A DNA stretch of 28,187 bases from a virus: IMG/VR virus record IMGVR_UViG_3300038825_001609, positions 297-28,483 of that record; one strand, written 5' to 3'. This document shows positions 5,046 through 28,187 of the stretch, in pieces; position 1 is the first letter of the stretch; each line of letters begins with the position of its first letter. A program made the translations under genes and the position numbers. The notes beneath the pieces are model-generated. The model was not told where the DNA came from and searched no databases. It saw only the letters and a list, made by a program, of their open reading frames with translations.

Positions 5046-5052
5046 TTTGTTT

Positions 5053-9940: not shown

Positions 9941-10261
9941 ATGATTAAACAAGAATACTTAGAAAAACTAGAAGAAAAGATAGATAGGAATAGTAAGAAA
10001 CTGAATGCTATCTATGAAATACTTACTAAGAAAGATACTAGTAAGATAGATAAACCATCCAACAATAATAATACTACTCAGACTAAACTTTATCCAAAGA
10101 ATATAGAGTTATTAGAAAGCTTATTAGATATTACTGATAACCAGAAGACTATAGCTTTCTTAACAAGTATTATTAACAACAGTTACCCTACTTTAACTGC
10201 AGGTCAAAATAAAGTTGTAGTAGATTTAGCTAACCAGTACAATGTAGATTATGGAAACTAA
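9941..10261 (+). CDS. Small coiled-coil-like protein, 106 aa
   Basis: I choose the ATG at 9941 (MIKQEYLEKLEEKIDRNSKK). An ATG at 9881 in the same frame would add 20 residues of A/T-rich leader. The N-terminal 30 residues are charged with heptad-like spacing, suggesting a short coiled coil. A low-complexity linker of Asn and Thr follows (about residues 38-50). The end, 'YPTLTAGQNKVVVDLANQYN', resembles a short helical motif that recurs in small phage proteins ('L..KQ..vv..l..kY'). It is the first gene of the plus-strand cassette and overlaps the next by 11 bases. The function is unknown. Confidence 0.6.
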   Translation: MIKQEYLEKLEEKIDRNSKKLNAIYEILTKKDTSKIDKPSNNNNTTQTKLYPKNIELLESLLDITDNQKTIAFLTSIINNSYPTLTAGQNKVVVDLANQYNVDYGN

Positions 10262-10757
10262 AATTTGTACAAAGTGTAATGCTAAAAAATCTATAGATGA
10301 TTATTACTATATAAAACCTAGTAAACACAGTAAAAAAGGATACTACTATAACTACTGTAAGCATTGTCATTATCATAAAATGACTAAACATACAGCTAAG
10401 AAGTGGCGTAAACAATACCCTACAAGATGGAAAGATGCAGCATATAAAGCACAAAAGGCTATGTTTGAAAGAGATTTTGCTGCTGTTTACTTATTAATAA
10501 CTACTAAAGGTTGGTATGTAGGTTCTACAGATAAGTTTAGACATAGAATGTATCAACATAAGTTCAGTAAGTTCAAAGGTAATATGTGTTATATAGGAGC
10601 TAAAGTTTTGTATACTCATGTACTAGGAAAAGAAGATAGGGTGTACCATAGACGTAAATTAGAAAAATACTGGATTCAAATGTTAAGACCTAGATTAAAT
10701 AAACACCACAATCCTTTATATAAGAAGTTATACCATGGCGGTTATGAAAAAAAATAA
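10251..10757 (+). CDS. GIY-YIG endonuclease with N-terminal zinc finger, 168 aa
   Basis: Residues 6-39 form a likely zinc finger with C6/C9 and C36/C39 in the phage-type arrangement 'CxxC...YY...CKHC'. Residues about 76-155 look like a GIY-YIG nuclease: 'AVYLL' (GIY strand), 'GWYVGSTDKFRHRMYQH' with YVG at 89-91 and Arg at 97/99, and a late 'LEKYWIQMLRPRLN' with the expected metal-binding Glu at 138 and Asn at 150. Such proteins cut DNA and often act as free-standing homing endonucleases in phages. No intron is visible around it. It overlaps both neighbours within a cassette placed between head genes, so it may have helped the cassette spread. A repair or host-degrading nuclease is the alternative. 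Confidence 0.75.
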   Translation: METKICTKCNAKKSIDDYYYIKPSKHSKKGYYYNYCKHCHYHKMTKHTAKKWRKQYPTRWKDAAYKAQKAMFERDFAAVYLLITTKGWYVGSTDKFRHRMYQHKFSKFKGNMCYIGAKVLYTHVLGKEDRVYHRRKLEKYWIQMLRPRLNKHHNPLYKKLYHGGYEKK

Positions 10758-11982
10758 AGATACAATATTTGTACAACTGGCATCTTACCGTGACCCAGAA
10801 TTAGTTCCAACTATAGATAACATGCTTGAAAATGCTAAGTACCCAGATAACTTACATATCTGTATAGCTTTTCAGTATAGTGAAGAAGACGAATTTACTA
10901 AAGAATTAGATAAGTATAGAGATGATACTAGATTTACTATTATTGATATCCCTTTCACTGCTGCTAAGGGAGCTTGTTGGGCTAGAAACCTAATACAACA
11001 AGAATATAAAAAAGAAAAATATACATTACAACTTGATTCTCACCACAGATTTACCAAAGATTGGGATATCTCTGCTGTTGATATGTTAGTTGGATTGCAA
11101 GAAAGAGGATATTCCAAACCCTTACTCACTTCCTATATCCCTTCTTATAATCCTGCAAACGATCCCGATCAGAGAATCAATAAACCCTGGGGTATGTCTT
11201 TTGATAGATTTACCCCTGAGGGTGTTGTATTTTTTCTACCCTATTATATAGAAAATAACCCGCTTAACCCTATACCGGCAAGGTGGTATTCTGCTCATTT
11301 CGTATTTACTTTAGGACAACACGCAATAGAGGTTCAACATGATCCAGAATACTACTTTCATGGTGAGGAGATAACTCTTGCTGTTAGATCTTATACACAT
11401 GGTTATGATTTATTCCATCCAAACAAAGTACTTGCCTGGCATGAATATACTCGTGTTGGTAGAGTTAAACAATGGGATGATGATAAAGAATGGGTAGAAA
11501 GAAATAATGCCTGCCATAAAAAAGTAAGAAGTTTATTAGGAGTAGATAATGAAAATGATATAGAAGAACTAGAGTATGGTTTAGGTACAGAAAGAACTTT
11601 ACAGGATTATGAAGTATATGCTGGTATAAAATTTAGTAATAGAAGTATAACAGAAGCCTGTAAGAAAAATGTAAACCCTCCTGGTACTCCTGAAGAACAA
11701 TACTATCAAGAGTTCAAACATGCTATAGATTTATTTCCTTCTCAATTCCCAGAAGATGACTATAGCTTTTGTGCTGTAATATTTGAAGATAATAAAGGTC
11801 AACAAATTTATAGAGAAGACCTTACAGATAAACAATTAAATAATTACCTTAAGACACATAAAGCTACTAATAACCATTTTACTATATGGAGAAAGTATAG
11901 CGGTCCTAAACCTAATCATATAATTATATGGCCTCATAGTATATCTAAAGGTTGGGGTGAAAAAAGAACTATCAACGTATGA
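10735..11982 (+). CDS. GlcNAc-transferase-like glycosyltransferase, 415 aa
   Basis: The protein fits the family related to Skp1 N-acetylglucosaminyltransferase (Pfam 'GlcNAc', PF11397). Seen are 'IFVQLASYRDPELVPTI' at residues 11-27 and 'YTLQLDSHHRFTKDWD' around 96-111, whose Asp-x-His sits at the usual metal/nucleotide-sugar site. 'PEYYFHGEEITLAVRSYTHG' near residue 204 is followed by 'WHEYTR', the family's acceptor-side block. The last 120 or so residues are a separate extension. Known members add GlcNAc from UDP-GlcNAc to a hydroxyl group. In a phage the target could be host surface glycan, phage DNA or virion protein. The ATG at 10735 lies inside the preceding gene; M4 at 10744 is an equally good start. 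The next gene overlaps as ATGA. Confidence 0.8.
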   Translation: MAVMKKNKDTIFVQLASYRDPELVPTIDNMLENAKYPDNLHICIAFQYSEEDEFTKELDKYRDDTRFTIIDIPFTAAKGACWARNLIQQEYKKEKYTLQLDSHHRFTKDWDISAVDMLVGLQERGYSKPLLTSYIPSYNPANDPDQRINKPWGMSFDRFTPEGVVFFLPYYIENNPLNPIPARWYSAHFVFTLGQHAIEVQHDPEYYFHGEEITLAVRSYTHGYDLFHPNKVLAWHEYTRVGRVKQWDDDKEWVERNNACHKKVRSLLGVDNENDIEELEYGLGTERTLQDYEVYAGIKFSNRSITEACKKNVNPPGTPEEQYYQEFKHAIDLFPSQFPEDDYSFCAVIFEDNKGQQIYREDLTDKQLNNYLKTHKATNNHFTIWRKYSGPKPNHIIIWPHSISKGWGEKRTINV

Positions 11983-12776
11983 GAAAACTTTTAACTGGTG
12001 TTTGTAATAATATAGAAACACATATAGATAAAATACTTTTATGGAATAACAGCTTTAAGGCTAAAACACAAGGAGATGTTATACTTCTTGCATGGAATCC
12101 AACTCCATCAGAGTTAAAACTATTAGAACAACATAACATAACGTATCTTAACGTTTCTAACGATAGTTCTGAGACAGTTAATAACCAACGTTTACTCCCT
12201 ATGAGTTCCTTTCTTATATCTAAGGAGAATGAGTATGATGCAGTGCTATATACTGATGTATTTGACGTTGCTTTCTTACACGATCCTTTTGAAAAGATGG
12301 ATTTATATAATTATAGTGTTTTTATTGCAGGAGAAGGAGTAACTCATGGTGAAGAACCTTGGAATGCTGATGTGATGAAAAAATGTTTTCCTAATGAGAA
12401 ACATAAATACAATAATTGTGAAGTATTTTGTAGTGGAGTTATGGCAGGTACTCCTGTAGCATTATCTAACTTTGTACAAGATATGTGGTTAACAGGTTTA
12501 CGAAGTCAAAAAGGACATGATATACACGATCAGGCAGCTATGAATATAAACATCTATAATGATACGTCTTATCGATTAAAAAAGTTTTTTATTTATGATA
12601 AATGGTGTTTACATATGGCAACAGGAGGTCCTACTGAATTCTTTGAATCGTGGGGTTTTAGAAATTCAATAGAACGTAAGTATGGACCTATTCCTGATTG
12701 GAAAGAATTTTCTATAGTTCACCAATTTAACAGAATACCACAAATACACAAAGAAATAAAATCGATGTATGAATAA
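11979..12776 (+). CDS. GT-A type glycosyltransferase-like protein, 265 aa
   Basis: The fold appears to be GT-A. It starts with a short strand ('KLLTGVCNNIETHIDKILLW'), then 'GDVILLAWNPT', and then a probable DxD region in 'DAVLYTDVFDVAFLHDPF' (about residues 87-103). Later blocks, 'EVFCSGVMAGTP' and 'KGHDIHDQAAMN', resemble the acceptor and catalytic parts of nucleotide-sugar transferases that check for 'G.....W.DQ..lN'. The sugar and acceptor are unknown. Start and stop overlap its neighbours by 4 and 8 bases, so it is made together with the other cassette proteins. Confidence 0.7.
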   Translation: MRKLLTGVCNNIETHIDKILLWNNSFKAKTQGDVILLAWNPTPSELKLLEQHNITYLNVSNDSSETVNNQRLLPMSSFLISKENEYDAVLYTDVFDVAFLHDPFEKMDLYNYSVFIAGEGVTHGEEPWNADVMKKCFPNEKHKYNNCEVFCSGVMAGTPVALSNFVQDMWLTGLRSQKGHDIHDQAAMNINIYNDTSYRLKKFFIYDKWCLHMATGGPTEFFESWGFRNSIERKYGPIPDWKEFSIVHQFNRIPQIHKEIKSMYE

Positions 12777-13512
12777 GAATATAGTTTGTATACACGGAGG
12801 TAGCTTTAATGGTTACGACCCATATTGGAAAAGTACAGGTATAGATTATGAATACCTAAATGATATTAGTAAAATTAATATAGGAGAAGGTTTACACTAT
12901 ACCGAACAAGACTGTAGAGATATTTTTCGTTTCCAAGGTCAAGTTAGTAAAAGCCATTACTGGAATAGTTATGGAAATAGAAACATTATATGGTTTTATG
13001 CTCATTTAAGAATGATATACTACTACCATAAGAATCCTCAATACGATTACTATTGGTTCTATGATGATGATGTAACTATTGATAACTGGAAAGTATTTGA
13101 AAAGAGTTTTATAGGTAATACTACTGATTTTATATCTTACTACCTATTTAAGAAAGAAGATTATAAATCACAACCTAAAATACCAATCATAGATAACAAT
13201 ACTACCTCAGATCATATGTGGTTTGAAAGATTTCCTGGTGATGGAGATAAATTACCTTCTGATGTACAAGAATACTATGGTTCTTTCTTTCCTATAGTTA
13301 GAATATCTAATCGTGCTTTATGTAAACTATATGAGTTGTGGAGAAATAAAAAATTATACGGTTATTCTGAAGGTTTTGTACCTACTATACTTAATTATTA
13401 TAATTATTCTTTAGATACTATATTTGATAATAACTCAGAAAGTAAACATTTTGACGATAAGATAGTAAATGTTAAACATAAAAATATTAAGATAGGATGG
13501 CAATGGATATAG
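12769..13512 (+). CDS. Putative glycosyltransferase-like protein, 247 aa
   Basis: A 'YYWFYDDDVTIDNW' segment near residues 92-105 looks like the DxD-bearing strand of a GT-A glycosyltransferase. It is preceded by a helix 'WFYAHLRMIYYYHKN' as expected for the sugar-nucleotide-binding half. The protein is very rich in Tyr, Asn and Trp. I do not recognise a defined family, and I rely on the DDD motif and the position between two transferase-like genes. It overlaps the gene before by 8 bases and the gene after by 16. The sugar and the target are unknown. Confidence 0.6.
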   Translation: MNKNIVCIHGGSFNGYDPYWKSTGIDYEYLNDISKINIGEGLHYTEQDCRDIFRFQGQVSKSHYWNSYGNRNIIWFYAHLRMIYYYHKNPQYDYYWFYDDDVTIDNWKVFEKSFIGNTTDFISYYLFKKEDYKSQPKIPIIDNNTTSDHMWFERFPGDGDKLPSDVQEYYGSFFPIVRISNRALCKLYELWRNKKLYGYSEGFVPTILNYYNYSLDTIFDNNSESKHFDDKIVNVKHKNIKIGWQWI

Positions 13513-14306
13513 CAAAACCTTGTATAGTATCAGCTCTTTTTGATATCGATAGACCTAACTGGAAGAATTTTAAGTCTTCTTACCATACCTATATACATTG
13601 GAGTAGACATCTTTTAAGTATAGATTGTAATTTAGTTATTTTTACCGAAGAAAAGTTTTTTAAGGAATTATACGACTTAAGAAAACAATTTGATCGTGAT
13701 ATGACTAAAACTAAAATTATAGTTAAAGATAAAACAGATCTACAATTATATTATACTCATTACGGTAGAGTAAAAGCATGTATGGAGAGTGATGAATTTG
13801 CTAAAAAAGTACAATTCGATGACGTTCCTGAAATGTGTCAGCCTTGGTATAATATTTTAATGTATAGTAAACTTACTTGGATGAGAGAGACTTATGTAAA
13901 TAAGTACTTTGACTGTAATTTACTTATATGGAAAGATATTGCAGTATATAGAGATGAATCAGATAAATATAATGTAAAATGGCCTGATGTTGAAAAGATA
14001 AGTCGTACTAAACCTACATTGTTTACTCACCATAATAAAGTAAATATATATGATAACCGTTCACATATACTTTCACAACAAAGATTTATACAGGGTGGAT
14101 GTATGGTAGTACCAGGACATTTACTACACCCATTAAATATAGCTTACTTAGAATTAGTAGACAAATACTTAGGAGAAGGGTTGATAGGTAGTGATGAAAA
14201 GTATTTAGATTTCCTTGTAAAAGACAATCCTAATAATTTCGAATTAATTAAATGTGATTGGAGAAAGTACTTTGGATTTTTTAAGTACGATCAACAAGTT
14301 TCTTAA
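13497..14306 (+). CDS. HtrL/YibB-like protein, 269 aa
   Basis: The N-terminus 'CIVSALFDIDRPNWKNFKSS' followed by 'CNLVIFTEEKF' matches what I know of the HtrL/YibB family (PF09612), whose genes often sit in surface-polysaccharide clusters. Further family-like parts are 'NILMYSKLTWMRETYVNKYF', 'NLLIWKDIAVYRDE' in place of the usual 'W.D.G', and 'RFIQGGCMVVPGH'. The family is thought to have a transferase-like fold, but its reaction is not established. It is the last cassette gene. Its final 26 bases overlap the end of the convergent membrane-protein gene at 14281-14430, and no terminator separates the two directions. Confidence 0.65.
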   Translation: MAMDIAKPCIVSALFDIDRPNWKNFKSSYHTYIHWSRHLLSIDCNLVIFTEEKFFKELYDLRKQFDRDMTKTKIIVKDKTDLQLYYTHYGRVKACMESDEFAKKVQFDDVPEMCQPWYNILMYSKLTWMRETYVNKYFDCNLLIWKDIAVYRDESDKYNVKWPDVEKISRTKPTLFTHHNKVNIYDNRSHILSQQRFIQGGCMVVPGHLLHPLNIAYLELVDKYLGEGLIGSDEKYLDFLVKDNPNNFELIKCDWRKYFGFFKYDQQVS

Positions 14307-14430: not shown

Positions 14431-15536
14431 TATTTCTGTTTTTTTGCTTGAATAAATTTATCGTTAAAGAAACCTTCAACTGAAAAACCTTTTATTTCAC
14501 CAGATTTAACTTTATTCCATACATACTTATCCTCAATCTTATATTGACCCATTAAAGTACCTACTGGAAGATCAAATCCGTATAATTGTTGTTTGTCTTT
14601 TTGTACATCTTCTACCATCCAAGTTGAAACCATATAACCGTCTACTGGTTTAGTTGCATCATGTTCAAGATTTAACTTGTCGATGTACTTATTCCTCATC
14701 ATCTTCTCACTTATTCTACGAATAGTATCTTCTGAAAAGAAAACATAATAAGGTTCTCCTTGTTCATCTATTCTAAGTATAAGTTTATTAGGTATCATTA
14801 GAGGACCTACTACCATTTGTTTATCTTCTTGTAGAGCAAAGGTAAGTTTTTGTTTCTCTGTAGTAAAATCTTGTTTCTCTGCACTGTTCTCTTCTCTAAT
14901 AGACTCTAACTTATTAGAAGCCCATTCTATACCGGCTCTACCACCCCATGCATCAACCATTAAGCCTCCGCAACCTTCTGAGTAAGGTATATCTTCATGT
15001 TGTAGGTGTCTAGCAAAGCTTGCCATTCTTGCAATAGTCTCTTCTGATATTGGCTCTCTTTTAGCAAGTTGATTAGCTCTTGCCCATCCGACTCTAGTAC
15101 CACACTCCTGGTCAGGGTGAGAATCTCTCCATTCGAGAGCTCTTTTGGCAGCATTTGTTGCAGATTCAGGATAATCGGAATAAGATTCAAATTGTTCATT
15201 GCTTGAAGATATTTGGTTTACATAATCAGGTAATTCTGTAGGATTAAGTTCAAAACTATCATAACATATAGCTGCTGCTTGGTCTTCACCATAACCTTCA
15301 CTTTTAAGAACTGGAATACATCTTGATATATATTCTTCTCTAGTTTCACCTGCTCTTCTTTCTACAAATAGATCTTTGACTGCATTTTCAATAAGTGAAA
15401 AAGCTATAGCATCTTCTATCTCTTTGTTGTTAAAAGCAAAGAAGTCTGCTTGTATAGCTGGTTCTTCTACCAATGCTACAGCATCTACTCCTGTAAATTC
15501 ATCTAAAGTGTTGATTAAAAGTTCGATTACCTTCAT
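14430..15536 (-). CDS. XkdF-like prohead protease with inserted domain, 368 aa
   Basis: The N-terminus 'DEFTGVDAVALVEEPAIQAD' and the C-terminal half fit the XkdF-like phage serine protease family, which matures or co-assembles with the prohead. Candidate catalytic residues are His in 'LNLEHDATKP' (near residue 290) and Ser in 'IKGFSVEGFF' (near residue 352). Residues about 60-212 are an insertion with two small helical parts: 'RRAGETREEYISRCIPVLK' with 'QAAAICYDSF', and 'ALEWRDSHPDQECGTRVGWA' leading to 'GGLMVDAWGGRAGIEWA'. I have seen these blocks in other Bacteroidota phage structural proteins. In transcription order it comes before the scaffold and capsid genes, but the plus-strand cassette now separates them. 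Confidence 0.75.
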   Translation of the reverse strand: MKVIELLINTLDEFTGVDAVALVEEPAIQADFFAFNNKEIEDAIAFSLIENAVKDLFVERRAGETREEYISRCIPVLKSEGYGEDQAAAICYDSFELNPTELPDYVNQISSSNEQFESYSDYPESATNAAKRALEWRDSHPDQECGTRVGWARANQLAKREPISEETIARMASFARHLQHEDIPYSEGCGGLMVDAWGGRAGIEWASNKLESIREENSAEKQDFTTEKQKLTFALQEDKQMVVGPLMIPNKLILRIDEQGEPYYVFFSEDTIRRISEKMMRNKYIDKLNLEHDATKPVDGYMVSTWMVEDVQKDKQQLYGFDLPVGTLMGQYKIEDKYVWNKVKSGEIKGFSVEGFFNDKFIQAKKQK

Positions 15537-17365: not shown

Positions 17366-20300
17366 CTAACTACAAACTGTAGCGTCAATTATAAGCCCTG
17401 AACCTGATATCTCTAAACTATACTGTGAGTAATCATCTTCTAAACCATACCCCCAGAATAAATCATTACCGTTGAATGGAGTAGTTAACGCACTATCTGT
17501 ATATACTGTTTTTCCTACTGCAAGAGATCCAGAAGTATATACTAGCTGTGTACAAAGATTCAAACATGGTGAATCTACATTTGCAAATCCTACTGAAGTA
17601 AAGTAATTCTCTACCTCTGCTCCAGTTGGTGTAGGAGTCGGAGTTGGCGTACTACTAGGAGTAGGCGTTGGAGTAGGAGTACCTGTAGGAGTTGGAGTAG
17701 GTGCTGGACAACTACCTGTTACTACAATATATGTTACATCGTTATATCTTACATATATTTCTGGTATACTACCTGTTGCTGAGTTATTACTTAATCCTAC
17801 ATAGTTACCAGATCCTGTGAAAGGTATAGTTAAGTTAGAATCATTCCATAGTTGGTCGTTAACTGAAGCTGAGAATACATTATCGAATGCATCAGTAAAT
17901 ACAGAAGCTGTTGTAAGTGTTGGATAACAAGCATCAGTACCAAGTATTGTAAACTGTTCAGTTACTCCAAACTCGTATGCTACTATTGGTGTTGCAGTTG
18001 GAGTAGGTGTAGGAGTACTTGAAGGCGTAGGTGTAGGTGTTGGAGAAGGTCCTATACAAGTTGTAGGACTAGTTATTACTCCTGTACTATTAGCTACAAA
18101 TACTGAAATACCTGCAAAACTTTCACTTGGACTAGATACTCCATAGTATAGATCGTTTCCATCGAATGGAGTAGTAAATGCAATATCAGTATAGAACGTA
18201 CCTGCACGTGAAACAATATCGCTTAGACTGTCTCTATCTGTATATACTGTATCATTACCTGTATTATCAAAACATATATCATTTATGACAGATCCAGTAG
18301 TTAAATTATAAGTATAAACAGCTACCGATGTTGGAGTAGGTGTTGGAGTAGGTGTACTACTTGGTGTTGGACTTGGTGTTGGAGAAGGACCTGCACAAAC
18401 TTGAACGTTGTTAAATAGTCCTGTATTATCGTTACCAAATCCATCTACAGTAGCAACTGCACTAGAAGTAGCACTAATTCCATACCATAAGTCATTACCA
18501 TCGAACGGTGTAGTTAATCCTGCATCAGTATATAAGAAAGTATTAGAAGCAGAAACTACAACATCATTATCTGCAGAGTATACTGTATACAATCCTGCTA
18601 CTTGGAAACACTCATCTCTAGTTACACTACCTGAAGTTAAGTAGTATGGGAAACTTACCACTGGAGTAGGAGTAGGTCCACAATCACCAGCATAAGATAG
18701 TAATCCTGTTGTATTATTTATAAACCCATCTATAGAAGCTATACTACTTGAAGGACTTGAAATACCATACCATAGATCATTACCATCAAAAGGAGTTGTT
18801 AATCCTGTATCGGTATAGAAAGTAGTACCATTAGTTACTATATCACTAGGAGTTGGTTGAGCAGAATATACTGTATAAAGTCCTGTTGTTTCATGACATT
18901 GATCTCTAGAAGTACTTCCTGAAGTTAAGAAGTATTCAAATGCAACTGTAGGTGTTGGTGTAGGTCCACAGAATTCTTTAGCACTAAATAAACCAGTATT
19001 ATCATTACCGAATCCTAAAGTAACTCCAGAACTAGCAGTAGTTGAATTTACACTATACCATAAGTCGTTACCATCAAAAGGAGTTTGTAATGTTTGATCA
19101 GTCCAGAAATAGTTACTACCTGTAGTAGTTAATACGTCATTTTTATCTGAATAAACTGTATAAGCACCAACTGCTTCAAAACATTGATCTTTAACTGAAC
19201 TACCTGATGATAAGAAGTACTCATAGAATACTACCGGAGTAGGTGTTGGACCACAATCGTATACAGTTGAAATATTACCTGTTGAATCGTTTACAAATAC
19301 ACTTATTAATGCCGTACTACCAGATGGTGTACTAACTCCATACCATAAATCATTACCGTCAAACGGTGTAGTTAAACTTGTATCTGTATATAATGTTCCT
19401 TTTCTACTTAAAATATCTGAAAGATCATCTCTATCTGTATATACTGTATAATCACCAGTAGTTTCAAAACATTCTGCATTGTTAGTATTACCATTAGTAA
19501 GACTATAAGTAAATACTGCAAATGGTGTAGGTGTTGGAGTACTAGTTGGTACTGGGGTTGGTGTAGCACAAAGACTAATATTAGTAACTCCTTGAGTTAA
19601 GTAATAATCAAAAGATCTCTTGTTAGCTGTTCCATCATAAGTATCTGCAATAGCATAAGACCAACCATCATACAATTGAGTTGTTAATGCTGAGTTAAGG
19701 AATATTCTATCTCCATTCTGCATATCAGTTACAGTAGTAAAGTCTTGAGAATATGCTTCATATATAGTTGGATCTTCACAAGCATCTTCATAAGTAAAGT
19801 TAGCAACTGTTACATAGAAGGTTGTAGTAGTTCCACAATCTTTTTCATCATTTCCTTTCTCTGATACTAAACCTGAATCTGATATAGACCATACAAAGTC
19901 TACATCTGCATTTTTAAGTCTATAGTATAAGTTACCACCATTAAATTGATAAGTTGGGTTACCTACCTCATTAGGATCAGTATAAACTCTTTGGTTATAT
20001 TCTGTCCAAGTAGTAGGATCTGCAGAAGAATAAACTGAACCTGTTAATTCTCTTGTACACATAAACTCACTTTGAGTTCCATCAGATATACCTAAACCAT
20101 ATACTCCTGCCGGTAAAGTAGCCGTTGGTGTTGGACTAGTAGTCGGTGTAGGAGTAGGTCCTGCAAACGGAGTAGGTGTTGGTGTAGCCGTTCCTGTAGG
20201 TGTGCTAGTTGGGAATGGTGTAGGTGTTGGTCCACCTGGTGTAGCTGTAGCTGTAGGGAATGGAGACGTAGCCGTTGGTGTTGGAGTTGGCGTTGGTGTT

Positions 20301-20557
20301 CCTGTTACTCCTGGAGTACTTGTTGGTGCTGCCGTTGGAGTTGGTCCTACATTTACATAATATGCATTATTACAATCTGGTGTGTTACTTTGAATTACAT
20401 ATACACTACAAAGTTCTTCAGTACAAAAACCTGCCGCTAATGTAGCAGTACTAACGTTTTGAGCAATAATATTACCAGGGTCTATACTACCACAGTAGAT
20501 GGTAAAATTACCTACCCCGTTGCTATAAGATGTTAATGTTAATGTTACTGAAGCCAT
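17366..20557 (-). CDS. Pro/Thr-linked modular tail protein, 1063 aa
   Basis: Residues 1-70 form a small beta domain. Residues 71-152 are a Pro/Thr linker with many PTPTP units. Then about nine modules of 80-100 residues follow, separated by short or long PT linkers. Five central ones are close copies: each has an early Cys, a 'YTVYTDRDDL'-like strand, 'LYTDTSLTTPFDGNDLWYGV', and a late Cys before 'GPTPTP'. The two N-terminal and two C-terminal modules are diverged. The two Cys per module could form a disulfide. No membrane segment is seen. The position between hub and tape measure, and the extended linkers, suggest a flexible tail-tip or side fibre that shows several binding domains. Thr/Pro linkers of this kind are classic O-glycosylation targets. 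The family name and ligand are unknown. Confidence 0.7.
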   Translation of the reverse strand: MASVTLTLTSYSNGVGNFTIYCGSIDPGNIIAQNVSTATLAAGFCTEELCSVYVIQSNTPDCNNAYYVNVGPTPTAAPTSTPGVTGTPTPTPTPTATSPFPTATATPGGPTPTPFPTSTPTGTATPTPTPFAGPTPTPTTSPTPTATLPAGVYGLGISDGTQSEFMCTRELTGSVYSSADPTTWTEYNQRVYTDPNEVGNPTYQFNGGNLYYRLKNADVDFVWSISDSGLVSEKGNDEKDCGTTTTFYVTVANFTYEDACEDPTIYEAYSQDFTTVTDMQNGDRIFLNSALTTQLYDGWSYAIADTYDGTANKRSFDYYLTQGVTNISLCATPTPVPTSTPTPTPFAVFTYSLTNGNTNNAECFETTGDYTVYTDRDDLSDILSRKGTLYTDTSLTTPFDGNDLWYGVSTPSGSTALISVFVNDSTGNISTVYDCGPTPTPVVFYEYFLSSGSSVKDQCFEAVGAYTVYSDKNDVLTTTGSNYFWTDQTLQTPFDGNDLWYSVNSTTASSGVTLGFGNDNTGLFSAKEFCGPTPTPTVAFEYFLTSGSTSRDQCHETTGLYTVYSAQPTPSDIVTNGTTFYTDTGLTTPFDGNDLWYGISSPSSSIASIDGFINNTTGLLSYAGDCGPTPTPVVSFPYYLTSGSVTRDECFQVAGLYTVYSADNDVVVSASNTFLYTDAGLTTPFDGNDLWYGISATSSAVATVDGFGNDNTGLFNNVQVCAGPSPTPSPTPSSTPTPTPTPTSVAVYTYNLTTGSVINDICFDNTGNDTVYTDRDSLSDIVSRAGTFYTDIAFTTPFDGNDLYYGVSSPSESFAGISVFVANSTGVITSPTTCIGPSPTPTPTPSSTPTPTPTATPIVAYEFGVTEQFTILGTDACYPTLTTASVFTDAFDNVFSASVNDQLWNDSNLTIPFTGSGNYVGLSNNSATGSIPEIYVRYNDVTYIVVTGSCPAPTPTPTGTPTPTPTPSSTPTPTPTPTGAEVENYFTSVGFANVDSPCLNLCTQLVYTSGSLAVGKTVYTDSALTTPFNGNDLFWGYGLEDDYSQYSLEISGSGLIIDATVCS
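18060..19520. repeat. Tandem array of five near-identical coding modules (about 280-330 bp each)
   Basis: On the plus strand the block 'CATTACCATCGAA.GG.GTAGT' (variants) recurs near 18150, 18490, 18774, 19060 and 19347, once per module of the 1063-residue protein, with a diverged copy near 17462. Spacing is about 280-290 bases where the linker is short and about 340 where it is long. Such long direct repeats allow module gain or loss by recombination. Confidence 0.8.
20101..20347. repeat. Pro/Thr-coding low-complexity tract
   Basis: The plus strand is made of GGTGTTGGAGTAGG-like units, encoding PTPTP on the minus strand (residues 71-152 of the 1063-residue protein). Similar tracts lie at about 17626-17703, 17978-18055, 18322-18390, 19520-19565, 20815-20862, 21064-21256 and 25782-25893. 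Confidence 0.85.
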
Positions 20558-20567
20558 ATACTATTTT

Positions 20568-23500
20568 TTACGGACAAGCTGGATTACTAACTGTTGTTAA
20601 TGTTTGTGTTGCAGCATTCCAGAATCTTGTTATACTAGTTTGATCACTATACCATGTATTCACACTTCTTAAACTTGTACAATTGCTATCAGAGTATACT
20701 TTAGTAGCTGCTGCAAGTGAATTTGCATTAAAGTATGCTGCTGTTAATTTAGTACTTATACAATAAGCATCAACATCACTAGTAGTACTACCATAAATAC
20801 CTATCAATTGCTGACATGGTACTGGTGTTGAAGTTGGTACCGGTGTAGGAGTTGGTGTTATTCCACAAGCAACACAACTTGCATATTGAGTATAAGTATC
20901 GATATCTCCATCTGCTCCTGTTCCTCCTGTACTATAATATTCAAAACAATCTACTCCATCAGACAATACTAATCCAGTTGTAGGTATTGGGTTTTGATCT
21001 GATACTTGAATTATTTGACCGGCAGGTTCACCACAAGTTATAAATCTAGCATAGTATACTGCAGGTGTTGGACTAGGCGATGGGGTAGGCGTAGCTGTTA
21101 CAGCCGATGTTTCTGTCGGTGTTGGTGTTGGTGTCGGTGTACTTGTACTAACCGGAGTAGCTGTTGGTGAAGGACCAATTGCTGTTGCCGTAGGACTAAC
21201 TGTAGGAGTTGGTGTAGGTGTAGCAGTTGTAAATGGAGTTGGAGTAGGACCTACCACACAGGCAGTACTACTTTCACTTGAACTAACTTCAAATTGACAA
21301 TTTACAGGTACGTTTACTCCACTAAAGTATGATGGGTATAATCTTAATAATTCAACAGTAGTTAAATCTTTTTGTGTTACATTAAACCCACTAATTTTGT
21401 TTATTCTGTATGCTTGATCTTTTACAAAGATTATATCGTTTAACTCTATATCTTTATATTCATGAGGTTCAAACTCTAAATCAAGAGTTACCTTTTTACT
21501 ACCCTGCCAGTATAAACTTTCAATATAAGTTTTCCAATAGTTGGTATAATTACTACTACCGGATATACTAAGATCACCTCCTGCTAAATACTTAGTAGGT
21601 ATATATCTATCTGTGTTACTTTCAAAATTTAAGTCCCTACTTGAACCTGTTATATAAGAATAACCTGGTGAGCTAGGGTATGGATAGAAGAAATCTTGCA
21701 TTTCTACGTTTGATAGAGTAGAATATCCAGGAATATTATTAAATCCACCCTCTATATGCATCGATAGACTAGTACCAGAATCATCTTGTACATCTATACC
21801 AGTTATTTTATATCCCAATCTTGGCTTAAACTTATAAGATTCTTGATTGTTGTTGTTAAATCTATATAAGTGAGGAAGGATACTTTCGTTAGATCCAATA
21901 TTGTTTGTAAATACAGCTGATGCAGTATTATCTGCAGTTAAATACTTACTACCGGTTATCATTGGTGCTAGTACTACAGGACCAAAATAATTTTCTACCT
22001 TTCTATTACCTTGTGCTAAATTAGAACTAGCTATAGTTCTTACGGTACCATATTGAAATCCAGGTACACTATTAAGGTAAATGTTACTAAACCTATCATC
22101 ATCTTCTGCTGAAGTAAATAATATTTCTTTAGGTTGTTCGTCTACAGTATGATTTATAGCTATTCTTTCTGCTGTATCCCATCTATCAGTCCAGTCTTTA
22201 TATTGACCTGATCTAATCCAGTCATCAAAAGGTTCAAGTCTTATTACTTTATTCTGAGTTGTATCTGGTATTGCTACCAAATTAAATTGTGTAAGAAATC
22301 CTTTGAATAAATCCATCGATTTAGTTTCAGGATCAAACTGCTCAGACATATCTATAGTAGCTCCATCAAAAGAAGGTGCCGGTGTTGGTATAGAAAAATA
22401 AGATGCAGTACTATCAAAAGTTATAGTTAAGTCCGAATCAGGACTACCATAATTTATACTTAAAGAAGTTTTATAGGTTGAACCAGAGGTTAACTGTACA
22501 TTTGTATTTAACCTTATATTATAATCATCTAACGTACCAGGGGCAAAGCTTTGTGATACTCCCCATCCACCGAAAGTTAAAGTACCATAAAAAGGAAATG
22601 CCTGTCCAGGATCAACTTCAAAATAAGTATCAATATCTACTGCATATTCTCCTGTGGAAGGAGCTGTAAAAGTATAGGTTGGTCCATTATAATTATTTTG
22701 TGGATCGGTTACCACACTATCAAACTCTACAACAGAAGATGTATATCCTCCTGGTGCTGCAAAATTTATTACCTGGTCTGCTGACATGGTAACATATATT
22801 TGTGCTTGGGATGAAGGTGATATAGGTCCTAAACCATCTTGTGCTTTAGGTAACACGTACATATTTTGACAATACGTATCTATAAAAGATGAAGTATAAC
22901 TATAACCTACCTGATCGAAAATTACTTCTAATAATTCTGGTACTCTTATAGACGGTTGAAACTGTCTAAGTAACATAGGTGATAGAGTGGTGGTAATACT
23001 ACCTGAATCAGCAGCACCACTTCCTGCCATTACTTTTGGTTGGGTAGGGAAAGCTACTACATTATCTGTACCAAAGTCACATAACGGATAAAATATTGAA
23101 CCACTTAGAGGCGGATCACCATCTGCCGTTCCTCTGTTATCTCTCCAGGATGAAGTTATAAACCCTCCATCTAAAGTATGATCATAAGCACTAAAGTCAG
23201 CATCTTTAATTAAAAGACCCTCTAATGCATCTTTGAACTCAACTACATTGTCACTTACCTGTACTTTGTAAGTTATATATCCATCTTGATCAGTTATTAT
23301 CTCTAATAATTGGAACTGACCTTGTAACATCGTCTCTCCCCCGGTAATAATATAGGCCGGTATGCTATTATACATTCCCGGTATATCATCCGAAGAGACA
23401 TTGTATCCGTGTTTGAAAAATTTATTGTTATTCTTTGTACCTGGAAGGTCAAAGGTCTGGGATCCTACTCCGAATATTTCTCCTATCTCTTGATTTTCAA

Positions 23501-23594
23501 CAGCAGATATATCCAACCGCAGGGGTATATTCCTATCGATGTCAAGATCATAAGTTGATCCATCATATACTACTCTTAAAATCAGGTCTGCCAT
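20568..23594 (-). CDS. Tail hub/baseplate protein with Pro/Thr-linked C-terminal domains, 1008 aa
   Basis: Residues 1 to about 775 resemble the large tail-hub-like protein of Bacteroidota phages: 'LRVVYDGSTYDLDIDRNIPL' at the start, 'GVGSQTFDLPGTKNN', then 'FKDALEGLLI', beta domains and a late 'LNDIIFVKDQAYRINKISGF'. From about residue 780 to 843 there is a PTPTP linker. A Cys-containing domain follows ('ARFITCGEPAGQIIQVSD'), then a second PT linker (about 911-926) and a final domain with 'ATKVYSDSNCTSL', related to the modules of the 1063-residue protein. The ATG shares a base with the previous stop (TAATG). I infer a baseplate hub with added receptor-binding domains; the hub role comes from size and context. 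Confidence 0.7.
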   Translation of the reverse strand: MADLILRVVYDGSTYDLDIDRNIPLRLDISAVENQEIGEIFGVGSQTFDLPGTKNNNKFFKHGYNVSSDDIPGMYNSIPAYIITGGETMLQGQFQLLEIITDQDGYITYKVQVSDNVVEFKDALEGLLIKDADFSAYDHTLDGGFITSSWRDNRGTADGDPPLSGSIFYPLCDFGTDNVVAFPTQPKVMAGSGAADSGSITTTLSPMLLRQFQPSIRVPELLEVIFDQVGYSYTSSFIDTYCQNMYVLPKAQDGLGPISPSSQAQIYVTMSADQVINFAAPGGYTSSVVEFDSVVTDPQNNYNGPTYTFTAPSTGEYAVDIDTYFEVDPGQAFPFYGTLTFGGWGVSQSFAPGTLDDYNIRLNTNVQLTSGSTYKTSLSINYGSPDSDLTITFDSTASYFSIPTPAPSFDGATIDMSEQFDPETKSMDLFKGFLTQFNLVAIPDTTQNKVIRLEPFDDWIRSGQYKDWTDRWDTAERIAINHTVDEQPKEILFTSAEDDDRFSNIYLNSVPGFQYGTVRTIASSNLAQGNRKVENYFGPVVLAPMITGSKYLTADNTASAVFTNNIGSNESILPHLYRFNNNNQESYKFKPRLGYKITGIDVQDDSGTSLSMHIEGGFNNIPGYSTLSNVEMQDFFYPYPSSPGYSYITGSSRDLNFESNTDRYIPTKYLAGGDLSISGSSNYTNYWKTYIESLYWQGSKKVTLDLEFEPHEYKDIELNDIIFVKDQAYRINKISGFNVTQKDLTTVELLRLYPSYFSGVNVPVNCQFEVSSSESSTACVVGPTPTPFTTATPTPTPTVSPTATAIGPSPTATPVSTSTPTPTPTPTETSAVTATPTPSPSPTPAVYYARFITCGEPAGQIIQVSDQNPIPTTGLVLSDGVDCFEYYSTGGTGADGDIDTYTQYASCVACGITPTPTPVPTSTPVPCQQLIGIYGSTTSDVDAYCISTKLTAAYFNANSLAAATKVYSDSNCTSLRSVNTWYSDQTSITRFWNAATQTLTTVSNPACP

Positions 23595-24718
23595 TATCTA
23601 CCAACTCTGTTATTTGAATATTGATATTGTATATCATATTGGAAGGTCTTTTGACCTCTCAAATTAGTATAGTGTGTGTAACTACCATTGGTTATAATAA
23701 TAGGAATAAAAGAAGAACCTTCCTGTAAAAATACAGAAGGTGATTCTAATAATTCACTTAACCAAATCGCTGTTTCTTGATTAATGTAAGGAGTGGTAAC
23801 GCTTATTGAATCATTATATTGTGTGTTATAATAATCCTTACCTCTTCTATTTACATCGTAAGTCCCAGATACACTTGAATAGTTAACAAACGGTTTTTCA
23901 ATTTGTTGTCTGTTAACTGTTGTAGTTTTCCTTATAGGTAGGTTAAATCCGTAGTAGTCCCATTGACCGTATTTGTTAATAAAAGCAAATCTTATTCTAT
24001 CATAATTACATTCTTCTGCTTTATTAAATACCCAGGTATCTGAACCGGCCGTTACTGTAACCGTAGTCCAGTTAGCTCCCGCCCCTATATTCTTAGTAGA
24101 TATCGGTACTATAGAGAATCCATTTGCACTTGAGGATATATCATATTCTATAGTAGGGCCGGGATTATAATCTACTGATGCTGTTACTAAATTACCACTG
24201 TTATAAAAAGTCATTGTGTGGTAATCATTATAAGATAATTCTTGATCTGTATATGGCATGTTAGTTAATGCCATTGACTGTGACTGCCAGTTAAAGCTTA
24301 TACCATTGTTAGGATCTACTACTCCAGGTGTTACCGTAGATGTAGTTCCTTGTACTGCAGGAGAACCAGGATTTCCATTACCGTCATATAATATAACAGA
24401 AGAAGAAACTGAAGTACCGTATTCCTCTCCAAACCTTATTTGAAAGTCTTGTACTTGTGAGGTAGGTGTAGTTTCATTATTTACCGTCCATGATTCTTCA
24501 TAGGTAAGGTAATCATTTAGTATTCTGGAAGGATCAAATATACCTACACCATTTGGGTTAGGATATTGTTTTGTTCTACTTAATAGTACACCACCCTGGG
24601 TAACATCCATTACATATTGGAATTGAGGTTGTGAATTAACTGAACTACTTACAGCATATACTAAATTAGTATAAGTAAAGTTAGGAAATGTCGGTTGTGT
24701 TACAAGTGTTATAGCCAT
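23594..24718 (-). CDS. Baseplate/distal tail protein, 374 aa
   Basis: This is a beta-rich structural protein without membrane segments. The part 'RIRFAFINKYGQWDYYGFNL' followed by 'WLSELLESPSVFLQEGSSFI' and 'TNGSYTHYTNLRGQKTFQYD' is a pattern I recall from the protein encoded before the hub in Bacteroidota phages. It probably forms part of the tail tip. Both ends are TAATG junctions with neighbouring tail genes, so its dose is tied to theirs. The exact role (distal tail protein or another baseplate part) is not resolved. Confidence 0.65.
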   Translation of the reverse strand: MAITLVTQPTFPNFTYTNLVYAVSSSVNSQPQFQYVMDVTQGGVLLSRTKQYPNPNGVGIFDPSRILNDYLTYEESWTVNNETTPTSQVQDFQIRFGEEYGTSVSSSVILYDGNGNPGSPAVQGTTSTVTPGVVDPNNGISFNWQSQSMALTNMPYTDQELSYNDYHTMTFYNSGNLVTASVDYNPGPTIEYDISSSANGFSIVPISTKNIGAGANWTTVTVTAGSDTWVFNKAEECNYDRIRFAFINKYGQWDYYGFNLPIRKTTTVNRQQIEKPFVNYSSVSGTYDVNRRGKDYYNTQYNDSISVTTPYINQETAIWLSELLESPSVFLQEGSSFIPIIITNGSYTHYTNLRGQKTFQYDIQYQYSNNRVGR

Positions 24719-25032
24719 TACCTCTTAAATGTTTTATCAAATAATATATCTAATTGTTGTTCCATAACTTTATCTACATCATTATCTAGTACTGTCATAT
24801 CCCATGCATCATTAATAAATGGTTGGGCGGACATTTTATATGTACCTTCGTTTACATACTGACCGTAATACACCATTTCTACACCGGCTTTTACCCTCTC
24901 TCCTTGTAGATCGGCAAACGTCTTAATACTTCGTTTAAGAGTACCTGTTCGGTAGGGAGCAAGCTTCTTTAGATTCTTGTTAAGATCCTTACCAAACTCT
25001 TTTATTATTTTAGTTACTTCTTTTGCTGCCAT
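24718..25032 (-). CDS. HK97 gp10-like head-tail/tail completion protein, 104 aa
   Basis: The motifs 'LAPYRTGTLKRSIK' and 'YYGQYVNEGTYKMSAQPFI' are the hallmarks of the HK97-gp10-like family of small neck or tail-completion proteins. I start at the ATG at 25032 (MAAKEVTKIIKEF). It gives a TAATG junction with the preceding gene, while an ATG at 25050 would add six residues in overlap. The family links head and tail or completes the tail end. Its place right after the tail-terminator-like gene fits that role. Confidence 0.85.
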   Translation of the reverse strand: MAAKEVTKIIKEFGKDLNKNLKKLAPYRTGTLKRSIKTFADLQGERVKAGVEMVYYGQYVNEGTYKMSAQPFINDAWDMTVLDNDVDKVMEQQLDILFDKTFKR

Positions 25033-26348
25033 TATGAATATTGTAAACAAATGTTAGCAGCTAGTGAACCTGTAAATCCAGGAGCATAATTCATATCGTT
25101 AGGGAACTTAAATTCTCTAACCGGTGTAGTACCTGGATCGGTAAGACATAATCTAGCTTCTTCTACTACTCCTGACCCGCTAGTGGTTGTATCTACAATC
25201 TCTAAGTTACCGTAAGTATAATTACCTGCACTTCCTGATCTTACTCTTATCCAGTAATCTGCCCCGGTATAAGTAGGACCAAATATATGATGACTAGTTA
25301 GAGTAGCATCTGTATAAGCAAATGAATTTACTATATTACCTGGGAAGGCCATATCATGACAAGTTACTTCAAAGCATATACTACCTGACGATAAGAATGT
25401 ATCATCACAATTGGTTTTAGTTGCCTGGAAGTTTCCATATTCTACACAAACGACATTGCTACCGGTTGGTGCAGGACCGTTACATATTCTAGCTCCTGTT
25501 ACTACATTATCATTAGAAATACTATCTCTTGTTACTACTAATACTGCCTCACCTAATGAGCTTGTATTAATACTTATATAATTATTTTCACCGGAATTAA
25601 ATTGAGTACCAAAGGTAGTTAAACTTGAATCACTATAGATTGATTTACCTAAAGCAGTATAAGGATAAGAACCAGAAGGTGAAAAGTCTACATAAGCAGT
25701 ATCTGGATGATCACCAGGATCAAGACAGGCACCTGAAATATTATTTACAGGAGCTGTAGTATTGTCTATACCAAAGCTATAAAAAGTAGGCGTGGCCGTA
25801 GGCGTAGGACTAGGTGTGGGTGTAGGGCTAGAAGTTGGACTAGGTGTAGGCGAACTTGTAGGTATAGGAGTAGGACTAGGAGTTGGACCAATCTTTGGAT
25901 AGTCACAATAGTCCCAATTCCAAGGTGATGCTACTTCAATAGTGGCTACCCACCCAAATACTCTGTCCTGAAAAGCTTCATTGACCGGTGACAGGTCGGT
26001 CATAGTAATGTCCCAAATTTGTTGACGCGGAGTTGTACCGCGATTAAACCAAGCTATTAACTGGTATATTCGTTCCTCACATTCACTAATGGTGTCTACC
26101 GGTGATTCATTAGAAAGTGTTGGTACATCCATAGAATATAATTCGAATGTGAGAGTTCTAACTTTATCCACCACCCCCGGACTTGAGATAGGACGAAGAT
26201 AAACATAAGGATAGTTTTTATTTACTGCATTGGCATCTAAAAAATCTATAGTACCGCTGTCAAAGGTAGATACGGAAAGATTTTCATTAGCAGCTTGAGT
26301 GAATAATTCTATAATTTCACTGTACGGTATGTTGTATCTGTTTGGCAT
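25032..26348 (-). CDS. Tail-terminator-like protein fused to Pro/Thr-linked display domains, 438 aa
   Basis: Residues 1 to about 150 look like a small tail-terminator protein. They start 'MPNRYNIPYSEIIELFTQAA' and include 'NYPYVYLRPISSPGV' and 'ISECEERIYQLIAWFN', as in proteins that cap the tail tube next to the gp10-like gene. A PT linker follows at about 152-189. Two Cys-containing domains come after it ('GKSIYSDSSLTTFGTQFNSG' in the first), related to the modules of the 1063-residue protein. Terminator proteins are usually 120-150 residues, so the display part is a large addition. The start shares a base with the stop of the -1 frame of the upstream chaperone gene. The identity of the N-terminal half is inferred. 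Confidence 0.6.
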   Translation of the reverse strand: MPNRYNIPYSEIIELFTQAANENLSVSTFDSGTIDFLDANAVNKNYPYVYLRPISSPGVVDKVRTLTFELYSMDVPTLSNESPVDTISECEERIYQLIAWFNRGTTPRQQIWDITMTDLSPVNEAFQDRVFGWVATIEVASPWNWDYCDYPKIGPTPSPTPIPTSSPTPSPTSSPTPTPSPTPTATPTFYSFGIDNTTAPVNNISGACLDPGDHPDTAYVDFSPSGSYPYTALGKSIYSDSSLTTFGTQFNSGENNYISINTSSLGEAVLVVTRDSISNDNVVTGARICNGPAPTGSNVVCVEYGNFQATKTNCDDTFLSSGSICFEVTCHDMAFPGNIVNSFAYTDATLTSHHIFGPTYTGADYWIRVRSGSAGNYTYGNLEIVDTTTSGSGVVEEARLCLTDPGTTPVREFKFPNDMNYAPGFTGSLAANICLQYS

Positions 26349-26650
26349 TATCTTCTGTTTCTACTTAATTGTATTTCTCTTTTTTCTATCTTACGTAATT
26401 CTTCGTTAAAATCTTTATCTATTTCTAGGTAATTTAGAACGGTTAAAAAGTTTACGTCTGTGATAGACGTGTCCCCTGTAATTTGTAATATATTGGATTT
26501 ACTGAGTTGGTAAAGAGTCCCCCACCAGCCCCAATGCTTGCCGAAAGAATTTTCATTTGATCTTGTTTCATCTTCTCCATCATCCTCTTGGTTATCTTGT
26601 TCTGTAAATAAAGAATATCTATCGAGTATTGATTTGCGGTGTGTAAAAAA
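26348..26650 (-). CDS. -1 frameshift extension of the tail assembly chaperone (98 aa beyond the slip)
   Basis: After the slippery heptamer at 26650-26644, the -1 frame stays open for 98 codons and ends at a TAA (26350-26348). It contains no ATG, GTG or TTG that could start it independently, and is open upstream only to about 26735. The product has an acidic linker (about 20 residues) and then 'SFGKHWGWWGTLYQLSKSNI', 'VNFLTVLNYLEIDKDF' and a basic end. The W-G-W...LY.L block is a familiar pattern of tail assembly chaperone C-termini. Its stop forms the TAATG junction with the next gene, while the zero-frame stop lies 104 bases earlier. Fusion length would be about 284 residues. Confidence 0.7.
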   Translation of the reverse strand, partial: FFTHRKSILDRYSLFTEQDNQEDDGEDETRSNENSFGKHWGWWGTLYQLSKSNILQITGDTSITDVNFLTVLNYLEIDKDFNEELRKIEKREIQLSRNRR

Positions 26651-27201
26651 AAACTGACAGCTCCTAATAGGATATGTATTGGAAATTGTTTGAAGTCTTC
26701 CTCCCTCTCCTTCCTCTTTTTATTATCGTAAGGTTCTACATTATACCAGTCAAATACATTCTCTACACTGTTATTGACCATTTTAATTTTTTGTTTAACG
26801 GCAAATTTTAATGTCTTAAATCTATGTGAAGTGATAGGACGGTACAGTATGGCTGCTAGTTTATGCATGTTACTCCCTAAGTCTTTAGTTAAATTTTCAA
26901 TATCAATATATTCACCTAGTGAACTATTCTGAAGACTTGAATAACCGTACAGTGTACCATTCCATTCAATTATACTATGAAACTCTTGTTTATGGTCCAG
27001 TAAGTCGGCATAGGCAGAGGCTATTTCTTGGATGGTTTGTACATTCCAATTCTCTACCTCCTCTTTATCTAAACCGGTTAATGCTGATATAACATGAACC
27101 ATTCTCTTTAGTTCTGATTCTCCTTCATAAGAATTCATCTTACTATACTGTTCAACGGTAAGAAAATCGGGGATGGTAATATTGAGAGTTTTAGTATTCA
27201 T
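26452..27201 (-). CDS. Tail assembly chaperone, zero-frame product, 249 aa
   Basis: The N-terminal half ('LNITIPDFLTVEQYSKMN', 'LGEYIDIENLTKDL', 'MHKLAAILYRPI', 'FDWYNVEPYDN') matches a recurring Bacteroidota phage protein in the tail module, which I regard as its tail assembly chaperone. Such chaperones bind the tape measure during tail assembly and are commonly made in two forms by a -1 frameshift (the lambda G/GT principle). Here the zero frame runs through a run of nine T at residues 183-186 and continues to a separate C-terminus ending 'YYKLQGTRLSQT'. The gene lies between terminase and the tail-terminator-like gene, with a 36-base gap after the terminase. The tape measure is not adjacent, which is unusual. 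Confidence 0.7.
   Translation of the reverse strand: MNTKTLNITIPDFLTVEQYSKMNSYEGESELKRMVHVISALTGLDKEEVENWNVQTIQEIASAYADLLDHKQEFHSIIEWNGTLYGYSSLQNSSLGEYIDIENLTKDLGSNMHKLAAILYRPITSHRFKTLKFAVKQKIKMVNNSVENVFDWYNVEPYDNKKRKEREEDFKQFPIHILLGAVSFFLHTANQYSIDILYLQNKITKRMMEKMKQDQMKILSASIGAGGGLFTNSVNPIYYKLQGTRLSQT
26644..26650 (-). promoter_or_regulatory. Programmed -1 ribosomal frameshift site (U UUU UUA)
   Basis: On the minus strand the frame reads AGT TTT TTT TTA, so the heptamer T TTT TTA lies in the X XXY YYZ register of the zero frame. It is the same heptamer as the HIV-1 gag-pol slip site. I see no clear downstream stem-loop. A purine-rich AAGGAGAGGGAGG stretch about 45 bases upstream is too distant for the known dnaX-type stimulation. 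Confidence 0.65.
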
Positions 27202-27237: not shown

Positions 27238-28187
27238 CTACATAGGCAGACTGCCGAATTTAGGTTGGATGGTAAGAGGTGTTTTACGGATGGTTATGTT
27301 ATTATTTTCAATAAACTTAACCCTGCTATAATTACTTAACATAAGAGAGTCAATATAATCATCTTTAGCACCCGGCATATGACTAAACGATAATTTACCG
27401 GCCGGTGATAATTTATAAGTATATGTAGAAAACTCTGTATGTAGTTCCGGACATAGTTCTGATGTAGGTAGTTCAATGGTCATAGTCTCTATATCATGAA
27501 TTAACTTCCTTACAAGATCCTGTTTACGGTCCTGGGTCATAAAGAACTCTCTTATCCTTGGATATCTTGGTCTTATTAAGTCAGACATAGCTTTACCTAT
27601 ACCGTTACATTCTATATATCCTCCTACCACATTAAAGTTATTAAGTAAGGACATAAACTTTTCTGCTATCTCTTGTATAGTTCTGTTGTTTATTGCCTCT
27701 ATCCATCTTACTCTTCCGGTCGGGTCAATGAGAGTTAGTACTGACATATCATCTGTAAGGCCGGTATCTATACCTACATATACGTCTACTCTTTGCTCAA
27801 TACTAAATAAGTTAATGGTAGATACTTTTTCCACTCCGGTAAAAACGTCATTACCACTATCAACAAAGTCAGCTAAAAACTCCTGACGGTAGATATCCGG
27901 AGGAAGTGATTTCTTAGCCTCTGTAATTAATACCTCACTAACATAAGGACAATCGGTAAGAGGAAACTTCATACTTACCACTTCAGGTTTATTATACCAT
28001 TGAAAGAAATGATTCTTTCCTCTTGGTGTACTAATCATTAAACATTTTTTACCTAACGGATTTAATGTAGGAAGGATGGCCGTCTGTATGGAATGTTCTT
28101 TAATAAAGGCTGCCTCATCTAATATAAGATGGGTAAATCTAAAACCTCTTATGTTGTCCGGGCTATCACTAGATAGAAACTTTAATG
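27238..28187 (-). CDS. terL: Terminase large subunit, C-terminal part (cut by window end)
   Basis: The frame stays open from the window edge, so the ATG at 28038 is internal (within 'GKKCLMISTPRG'). The visible part covers the end of the ATPase domain, with Walker B and catalytic Glu in 'THLILDEAAFIK' (about 28100-28130) and 'LMISTPRGKN' as the coupling motif. The RNase H-like nuclease domain follows: 'VDVYVGIDTGLTDDMSVLTL' (first Asp), 'GGYIECNGIGKAMSDLI' (Glu) and 'GAKDDYIDSLMLSN' (last Asp). The enzyme pumps DNA through the portal and cuts the concatemer. It is the most upstream late gene seen; the small subunit would lie outside the window. Confidence 0.92.
   Translation of the reverse strand, partial: LKFLSSDSPDNIRGFRFTHLILDEAAFIKEHSIQTAILPTLNPLGKKCLMISTPRGKNHFFQWYNKPEVVSMKFPLTDCPYVSEVLITEAKKSLPPDIYRQEFLADFVDSGNDVFTGVEKVSTINLFSIEQRVDVYVGIDTGLTDDMSVLTLIDPTGRVRWIEAINNRTIQEIAEKFMSLLNNFNVVGGYIECNGIGKAMSDLIRPRYPRIREFFMTQDRKQDLVRKLIHDIETMTIELPTSELCPELHTEFSTYTYKLSPAGKLSFSHMPGAKDDYIDSLMLSNYSRVKFIENNNITIRKTPLTIQPKFGSLPM

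Follow-up and report, generated by a model that had tools for sequence, protein, structure and literature searches.

Two reading frames joined at a conserved T run in a putative tail assembly chaperone gene of phages that probably infect Bacteroidota

Tail assembly chaperone genes supply the textbook example of a conserved ribosomal frameshift in phages. In phage lambda, the late tail-cluster gene G gives a short form and, via a −1 shift at the heptamer G GGA AAG, the fused long form GT. Homologous genes can also differ in mechanism, the precedent being dnaX, cited as such in PMC5009743 and PMC3711429; Thermus dnaX is recoded by transcriptional slippage on A9 and E. coli dnaX by the ribosome. 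Like the locus described here, dnaX has a homopolymer of nine, homologues in which the slipping partner may be either polymerase or ribosome, and an early stop in the other frames (PMC5009743, PMC1088944); unlike it, dnaX is a host replication gene with an A run, and in Thermus it is the long product that is read in frame. An A/T run within a gene, with a downstream reading frame reached through altered mRNA, is also seen in IS elements and Shigella spa/mxiE (A9/T9-type), although none is a virion assembly gene (PMC1088944, PMC5009743). Several general observations bear on such runs: the RNA:DNA hybrid in the polymerase is 9–10 bp (PMC5009743); many bacteria select against A/T runs once these reach nine (PMC1088944); among slippage insertions those of one base predominate, and they increase exponentially as the run lengthens (PMC5574713); and E. 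coli avoids UUUUUUU in all three frames, an avoidance connected by the authors of that study with transcriptional slippage or mutation (PMC4066793).

The locus lies in a 28,187-nucleotide stretch of viral DNA (the window), positions 297 to 28,483 of IMG/VR record IMGVR_UViG_3300038825_001609. It shares with lambda G/GT the short form, the long form fused via a −1 shift and the place in a late tail cluster, but has no detectable sequence or PDB-fold relation to it, and differs in its long two-frame overlap, in having a T homopolymer with a length rule rather than a mixed heptamer, and in adjoining the terminase gene. The elements of the site are as follows.

26452..27201, minus strand: zero-frame open reading frame of 249 codons (249 aa), encoding the short, gpG-like product; the motif GEYIDIEN is residues 96–103
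26645..26653, minus strand: T9 slippage run, in the zero frame AGT TTT TTT TTA (26655–26644); at least nine T in 335 of 343 homologous loci
26647..26653, minus strand: in-phase heptamer T_TTT_TTT, common to all 343 homologues
26644..26650, minus strand: second in-phase heptamer T_TTT_TTA, absent from most relatives
26348..26653, minus strand: −1 frame with the C-terminal (T-like) domain and its WGW...LY.L block; 101 codons from the run, plus stop
26346..26350, minus strand: TAATG, in which the stop of the −1 frame overlaps the start of the following gene

A sequence-only reading of the window had proposed a programmed −1 frameshift here, and its description of the site is confirmed by the sequence. 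The zero frame reads through the run as listed; beyond the run the −1 frame extends 98 codons to the TAA at 26350–26348, for a predicted fusion product of 284 aa; and the TAATG overlap of stop and start does recur at three other gene pairs (25032, 24718 and 23594). The gap from the zero-frame stop to the next ATG, given as 104 bases, is about 103. The statement that the −1 frame has no start codon of any kind was slightly too strong: ATG, GTG, TTG and CTG are all missing, but ATA occurs five times and ATT and ATC once each. The +1 frame, which a one-base deletion would reach, has a median of 2 codons before its stop (7 in the window). In this AT-rich window two T9 runs were found against 1.6 expected, and TTTTTTA is mildly over-represented (26 against 17 expected). 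Because a lone T9 run is not rare in such sequence, the case for recoding rests on relatives.

Homologues of the zero-frame protein, confirmed by tblastn, came from IMG/VR, one Bacteroidetes MAG and the Nonlabens phages P12024L and P12024S, and the locus set was enlarged by searches seeded from divergent members. This gave 343 loci with the site, some contigs among them fetched twice, which reduce to 141 representatives at 90% identity, 89 at 70% and 33 at 50%. The T run was never a search criterion; some seed peptides include FF, but their codons are degenerate. At all 343 loci the run stands in slip phase with an open −1 frame behind it, 79–103 codons long wherever the contig extends to the stop, and the block F..[KR][WF]GW....Y.L[AS] of the −1 domain is kept in most relatives. 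Two relatives are 64% identical over the full 249 residues. A further contig (L288), 99% identical and with a T10 run but a shortened −1 domain, was excluded from these counts. No direct match to the protein encoded in the window was found in INPHARED, the MAG already known was the only find among 395 genomes of its phylum, and no comparable site or homologue was recognised near the tape measure gene of Polaribacter phage P12002L. The conservation of run and −1 frame in 343 homologous loci lifts the site above chance. The proposal of programmed −1 recoding, with a short and a fused long form, is thus upheld by the relatives rather than explained by sequencing error, and we take recoding at this locus to be very nearly certain, about as secure as sequence allows. 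The exact heptamer fared less well when sought in relatives: U UUU UUA is lineage-specific, whereas U UUU UUU, one codon earlier, is present in all 343.

The Nonlabens phages and the MAG indicate that the family's hosts are probably Bacteroidota. P12024L and P12024S (Inhavirus; phrog_32199 and phrog_38404) share family, synteny and a T9 run in the same place with the window, and differ in a shorter zero frame after the run and in being annotated with two separate hypothetical proteins. In the two records concerned (L121:12001-12695 for P12024L, and L122), the T9 site indicates one frameshifted gene, and the start given for the second, short reading frame is probably false.

Both parts of the predicted long form are modelled with good confidence by AF2 from alignments (pLDDT 85 for the zero-frame protein, 88 for the homologous −1 domain), and both occur together elsewhere. 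In Duneviridae, the group of Flavobacterium phage 6H and the FPSV phages, a homologue of both modules is encoded in one continuous frame of 293–304 aa, with no T run at the junction. The fused set aligns with this family end to end by hhalign (98.4%, E 1.1e-14, columns 5–252 of 263 against 10–297 of 301); with the zero-frame set alone the alignment stops at column 216, and the −1 domain alone matches weakly (E 0.055). Seven BFVD proteins of 226–267 aa also match both the zero-frame and the −1-frame models. Together, the end-to-end alignment and the BFVD matches indicate that the two parts occur as one chain elsewhere. Single-frame relatives, which the sequence-only reading had named, with eight or ten T at the site, as a sign of an assembly indel, therefore do exist; since they have no T run, they show no indel and represent an evolutionary alternative. 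With a single frame and no run at the junction, the Duneviridae gene would make no short form by the slippage route. The record of Flavobacterium phage 6H itself (L128:10047-10927) has a broken homologue frame, continuous in relatives L129–L131 that are 98–99% identical; a double shift in this phage was considered and rejected, and the record probably has indels.

How far both frames are used past the run was judged from substitutions by codon position in 34 pairs of relatives, which divide the zero frame downstream of the run in two.

26555..26644, minus strand: zone of about 30 codons in which both frames are apparently constrained; the zero frame is a predicted helix
26452..26554, minus strand: remaining zero frame, open, evolving as −1-frame sequence and mostly predicted to be disordered

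Upstream, where a single frame is read, substitution rates at zero-frame positions 1/2/3 are.132/.088/.304, and in the −1-only region the rates at −1-frame positions 1/2/3 are.152/.088/.243. In the first 30 codons past the run they are even (.147/.163/.163), which is what use of both frames would predict, and from codon 30 onward in the overlap (.072/.202/.141) they look like the −1 frame by itself. The last predicted zero-frame helix ends at residue 222, and the model is of low confidence over most of residues 225–249. Past the run the zero frame stays open for a median of 60.5 codons, against 6 after synonymous randomisation of the −1 frame (50 representatives; mean P 0.08 per sequence, 0.05 for the window), and in some clades it stops 25–33 codons past the run. 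In our view, then, about 30 residues past the run form a functional tail of the short form, and what remains of the zero frame largely shadows the −1 frame. The earlier suggestion that two frames are used over almost 200 bases (63 codons) thus holds for roughly the first 30 codons, or 90–110 bases; full dual coding over about 190 bases was rejected on the substitution pattern.

Among the 343 loci, T9 occurs 260 times, T10 71 times, T11 four times, T7 eight times and T8 never, and the first T of the run can fall at any of the three codon positions. On a tree of 102 sequences the phase changed six times and the flanking codons dozens of times, while T9 stayed unbroken. The numbers of T before and after the heptamer compensate each other: in the 141 representatives no T8 was seen against 33.5 expected if the two were independent, and when they were simulated as independent characters on the tree of 89 representatives, finding no T8 had P 0.0017 and finding at most one run shorter than nine had P 0.003. 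The residues encoded by the flanking codons vary (V, S, F, L, N, G, D, R, I and T in the first; Y, L, F, I, W, S and T in the second), so that the flanking amino acids seem free enough for protein constraint alone to be no obvious cause of the length rule. Part of the rule could nevertheless arise at the protein level, because the same nucleotides must satisfy the residues of both frames.

The eight T7 loci (L149, L150, L164, L172, L173, L178, L198 and L214), which came to light in the wider search, overturn at least nine T as a universal rule. Seven are distinct, and they represent four switches on the tree. In all eight the heptamer is in phase and the −1 frame is kept; the third-position T of the first codon is constant, while its other two bases vary (ACT, AGT, TCT or CGT before TTT TTT). 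Only these loci inform on heptamer phase, because T_TTT_TTT falls in phase automatically in runs of at least nine.

Other genes of the same loci served as a control for run avoidance (289 non-redundant genes, 225 kb, with expectation by codon shuffling). They contain no T run of nine or more against 6 expected, and 6 such A runs against 30 expected, a fivefold depletion. In-phase T6 is found 31 times against 41 expected, and T7 8 times in phase against 21 expected and twice out of phase against 14 expected. The depletion grows with length and is not tied to the ribosomal slip phase; it starts at T7 and could reflect replication slippage. No stable RNA structure was found in the 60 nt downstream of the run in 59 representatives (mean z −0.07, no better than controls, pseudoknots unscored), and the T7 group gave z −0.7 ± 0.4 (n=7); no downstream stem-loop that could act as a stimulator was found in either set, and that idea was rejected.

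Accounts of the locus that dispense with recoding find little room beside these data. P12024L and P12024S are annotated with a separate reading frame of the 56-aa class that starts in a TAATG overlap, as would suit a −1 frame that is an internally started gene of its own, leaving the short form as the sole N-terminal product. Yet conservation of the −1 domain sets in at the run itself, before the start annotated in P12024L, relatives carry both parts in one frame, and in the window, where the −1 frame has none of ATG, GTG, TTG and CTG, a separate gene with its own start was rejected; overall we consider this reading highly improbable. Still less credible is the idea that a single-frame gene acquired an indel in its homopolymer during assembly or sequencing. 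Homopolymers are error-prone and a single-frame family does exist, but the same frame relation recurs in 343 loci from many assemblies, in three codon phases, with runs of 7–11 and in cultured phage genomes, and the zero frame, too, stays open past the run far longer than in simulations. The 343 relatives refute this explanation.

The choice between polymerase and ribosome is less clear-cut. The site resembles known transcriptional slippage sites in having an A/T run of about nine or more (335 of 343 loci, the T7 loci excepted) whose length is independent of phase, and resembles ribosomal sites in having X XXY YYZ in phase at every locus, though without the 3′ stimulatory structure that is frequent, if not obligatory, there. 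Ribosomal −1 slippage on U_UUU_UUU alone would have the tRNA-Phe in the P and A sites re-pair one base back, the long run being a by-product of two-frame coding. The universal in-phase heptamer agrees with this, automatically for runs of at least nine but not for T7, and so do the T7 lineages, which retain exactly this heptamer even though the other bases of the first codon vary. The characterised cases of tail-chaperone recoding that we found in the literature are, moreover, all described as ribosomal (PMC5009743), with 6–7% reported for an HK97-like cluster (PMC3711429). But slippage by the ribosome predicts no tie between the T's before and after the heptamer, yet their total stays at nine or more; no stimulatory structure lies downstream; and other genes avoid the in-phase T_TTT_TT of six only slightly and have no runs of at least nine. 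We regard the ribosome acting alone as the main rival, though less likely than not. The description of U UUU UUA as a canonical ribosomal site likewise needs amending, for it leaves unexplained why at least nine T are kept whatever the codon phase. A ribosome reading codons has no reason to preserve total run length, whereas the 9–10 bp hybrid gives the polymerase one; together with the lack of downstream RNA structure and the depletion of runs in nearby genes, the length rule makes slippage by RNA polymerase the favoured reading for most members. Against it, a T7 run appears too short for strong slippage by E. coli data and yet keeps the −1 frame, and the discovery of eight T7 loci has lowered the claim of a purely transcriptional mechanism. 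Judged from sequence comparison, polymerase slippage is with modest confidence the probable main step in members with at least nine T, including the window.

We read the locus as one gene with two products in a ratio that we infer: the zero frame gives the short form of about 249 aa, and a −1 change at the T9 run gives a long form of 284 aa that gains a helical domain at its C-terminus, after the fashion of G and GT. Under polymerase slippage, RNA polymerase would slip on the run, and an extra U in the transcript would place the downstream sequence in the −1 frame; transcripts losing a U would meet an early stop. Ribosomal −1 slippage may add to the fusion in members with at least nine T, because the in-phase U_UUU_UUU lies inside the same run. 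In the few T7 lineages, where the heptamer stays in phase with its first T kept, ribosomal slippage is probably the mechanism. One chaperone family in phages probably infecting Bacteroidota may then hold three solutions, namely polymerase slippage at T9–T11, ribosomal slippage at T7 and permanent fusion, a proposition to which we give not quite even weight. Transcriptional slippage in tailed phages was not found in the literature searched, an incomplete sample in which tail-chaperone recoding is named only as ribosomal, so novelty is unproven.

The identity of the gene product was approached through its neighbours and through family searches.

27238..28187, minus strand: terminase large subunit, 5′ end outside the window; the upstream neighbour, also in the family
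25032..26348, minus strand: downstream neighbour, 438 aa, with Thr-Pro linkers
24718–25032, minus strand: HK97-gp10/Neck1-like gene, following the 438-aa gene

The conserved gene order is terminase large subunit, slip gene, a gene of about 150 aa (phrog_30964 in P12024L), a tail-completion/Neck1-type gene, phrog_35281 and tail genes. This is not the usual chaperone place between the major tail protein and the tape measure: the gene follows the terminase and precedes tail-completion/neck-type genes, with the tape measure further downstream. Curated chaperone families (Phage_TAC, gpG-like) gave no match, the best Pfam TAC hit (E 0.25) being below cut-off, and no Pfam family is common to the aligned members. 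Only 3 of 51 members match phrog_166 'tail protein' (E 0.003), two annotated chaperones in BFVD match weakly, and PDB fold and sequence searches returned nothing useful, chitinase-like matches (E 0.004 over about 60 residues) being taken as chance. The anatomy is that of G/GT-type genes, with a zero-frame reading frame continued by a startless −1 frame, a slippery run at the junction and conservation in relatives. Because no curated family or PDB entry matches, we infer the role from this two-product anatomy and the conserved tail/neck cluster beside the terminase; on these grounds the sequence-only assignment as a tail assembly chaperone is plausible and, in our judgement, quite likely correct.

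Other parts of the window have features of their own. Three structural proteins on the minus strand (25032–26348, 20568–23594 and 17366–20557) carry long Thr-Pro repeat linkers; the products of 25032–26348 and 20568–23594 share phrog_15511-like domains, and the 1063-aa protein of 17366–20557 repeats one unit several times. An 841-aa protein (2574–5099, minus strand) with many ASYAV/SASYAL repeats and no family match is probably a tail fibre. A 79-codon reading frame (14960–15199, minus strand) lies in another frame of the gene for a 368-aa XkdF-like protease. On the plus strand, opposite to the structural genes, 10251–14306 encodes a GIY-YIG endonuclease, a GlcNAc-type glycosyltransferase, the products of two unmatched reading frames and an HtrL/YibB-like protein; this cassette looks like inserted accessory (moron) genes.

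The analysis corrects annotation, in that cultured relatives list the halves separately and gene callers miss the −1 half or misplace its start. The cultured Nonlabens phages with a T9 site make the mechanism directly testable, and the T7 lineages offer natural material for separating ribosomal from transcriptional slippage. If the proposed scheme is true, what is conserved in a large unannotated family would be homopolymer length and not a heptamer in codon phase, the assembly ratio could be set at transcription, and the mechanism could change while both products stay.
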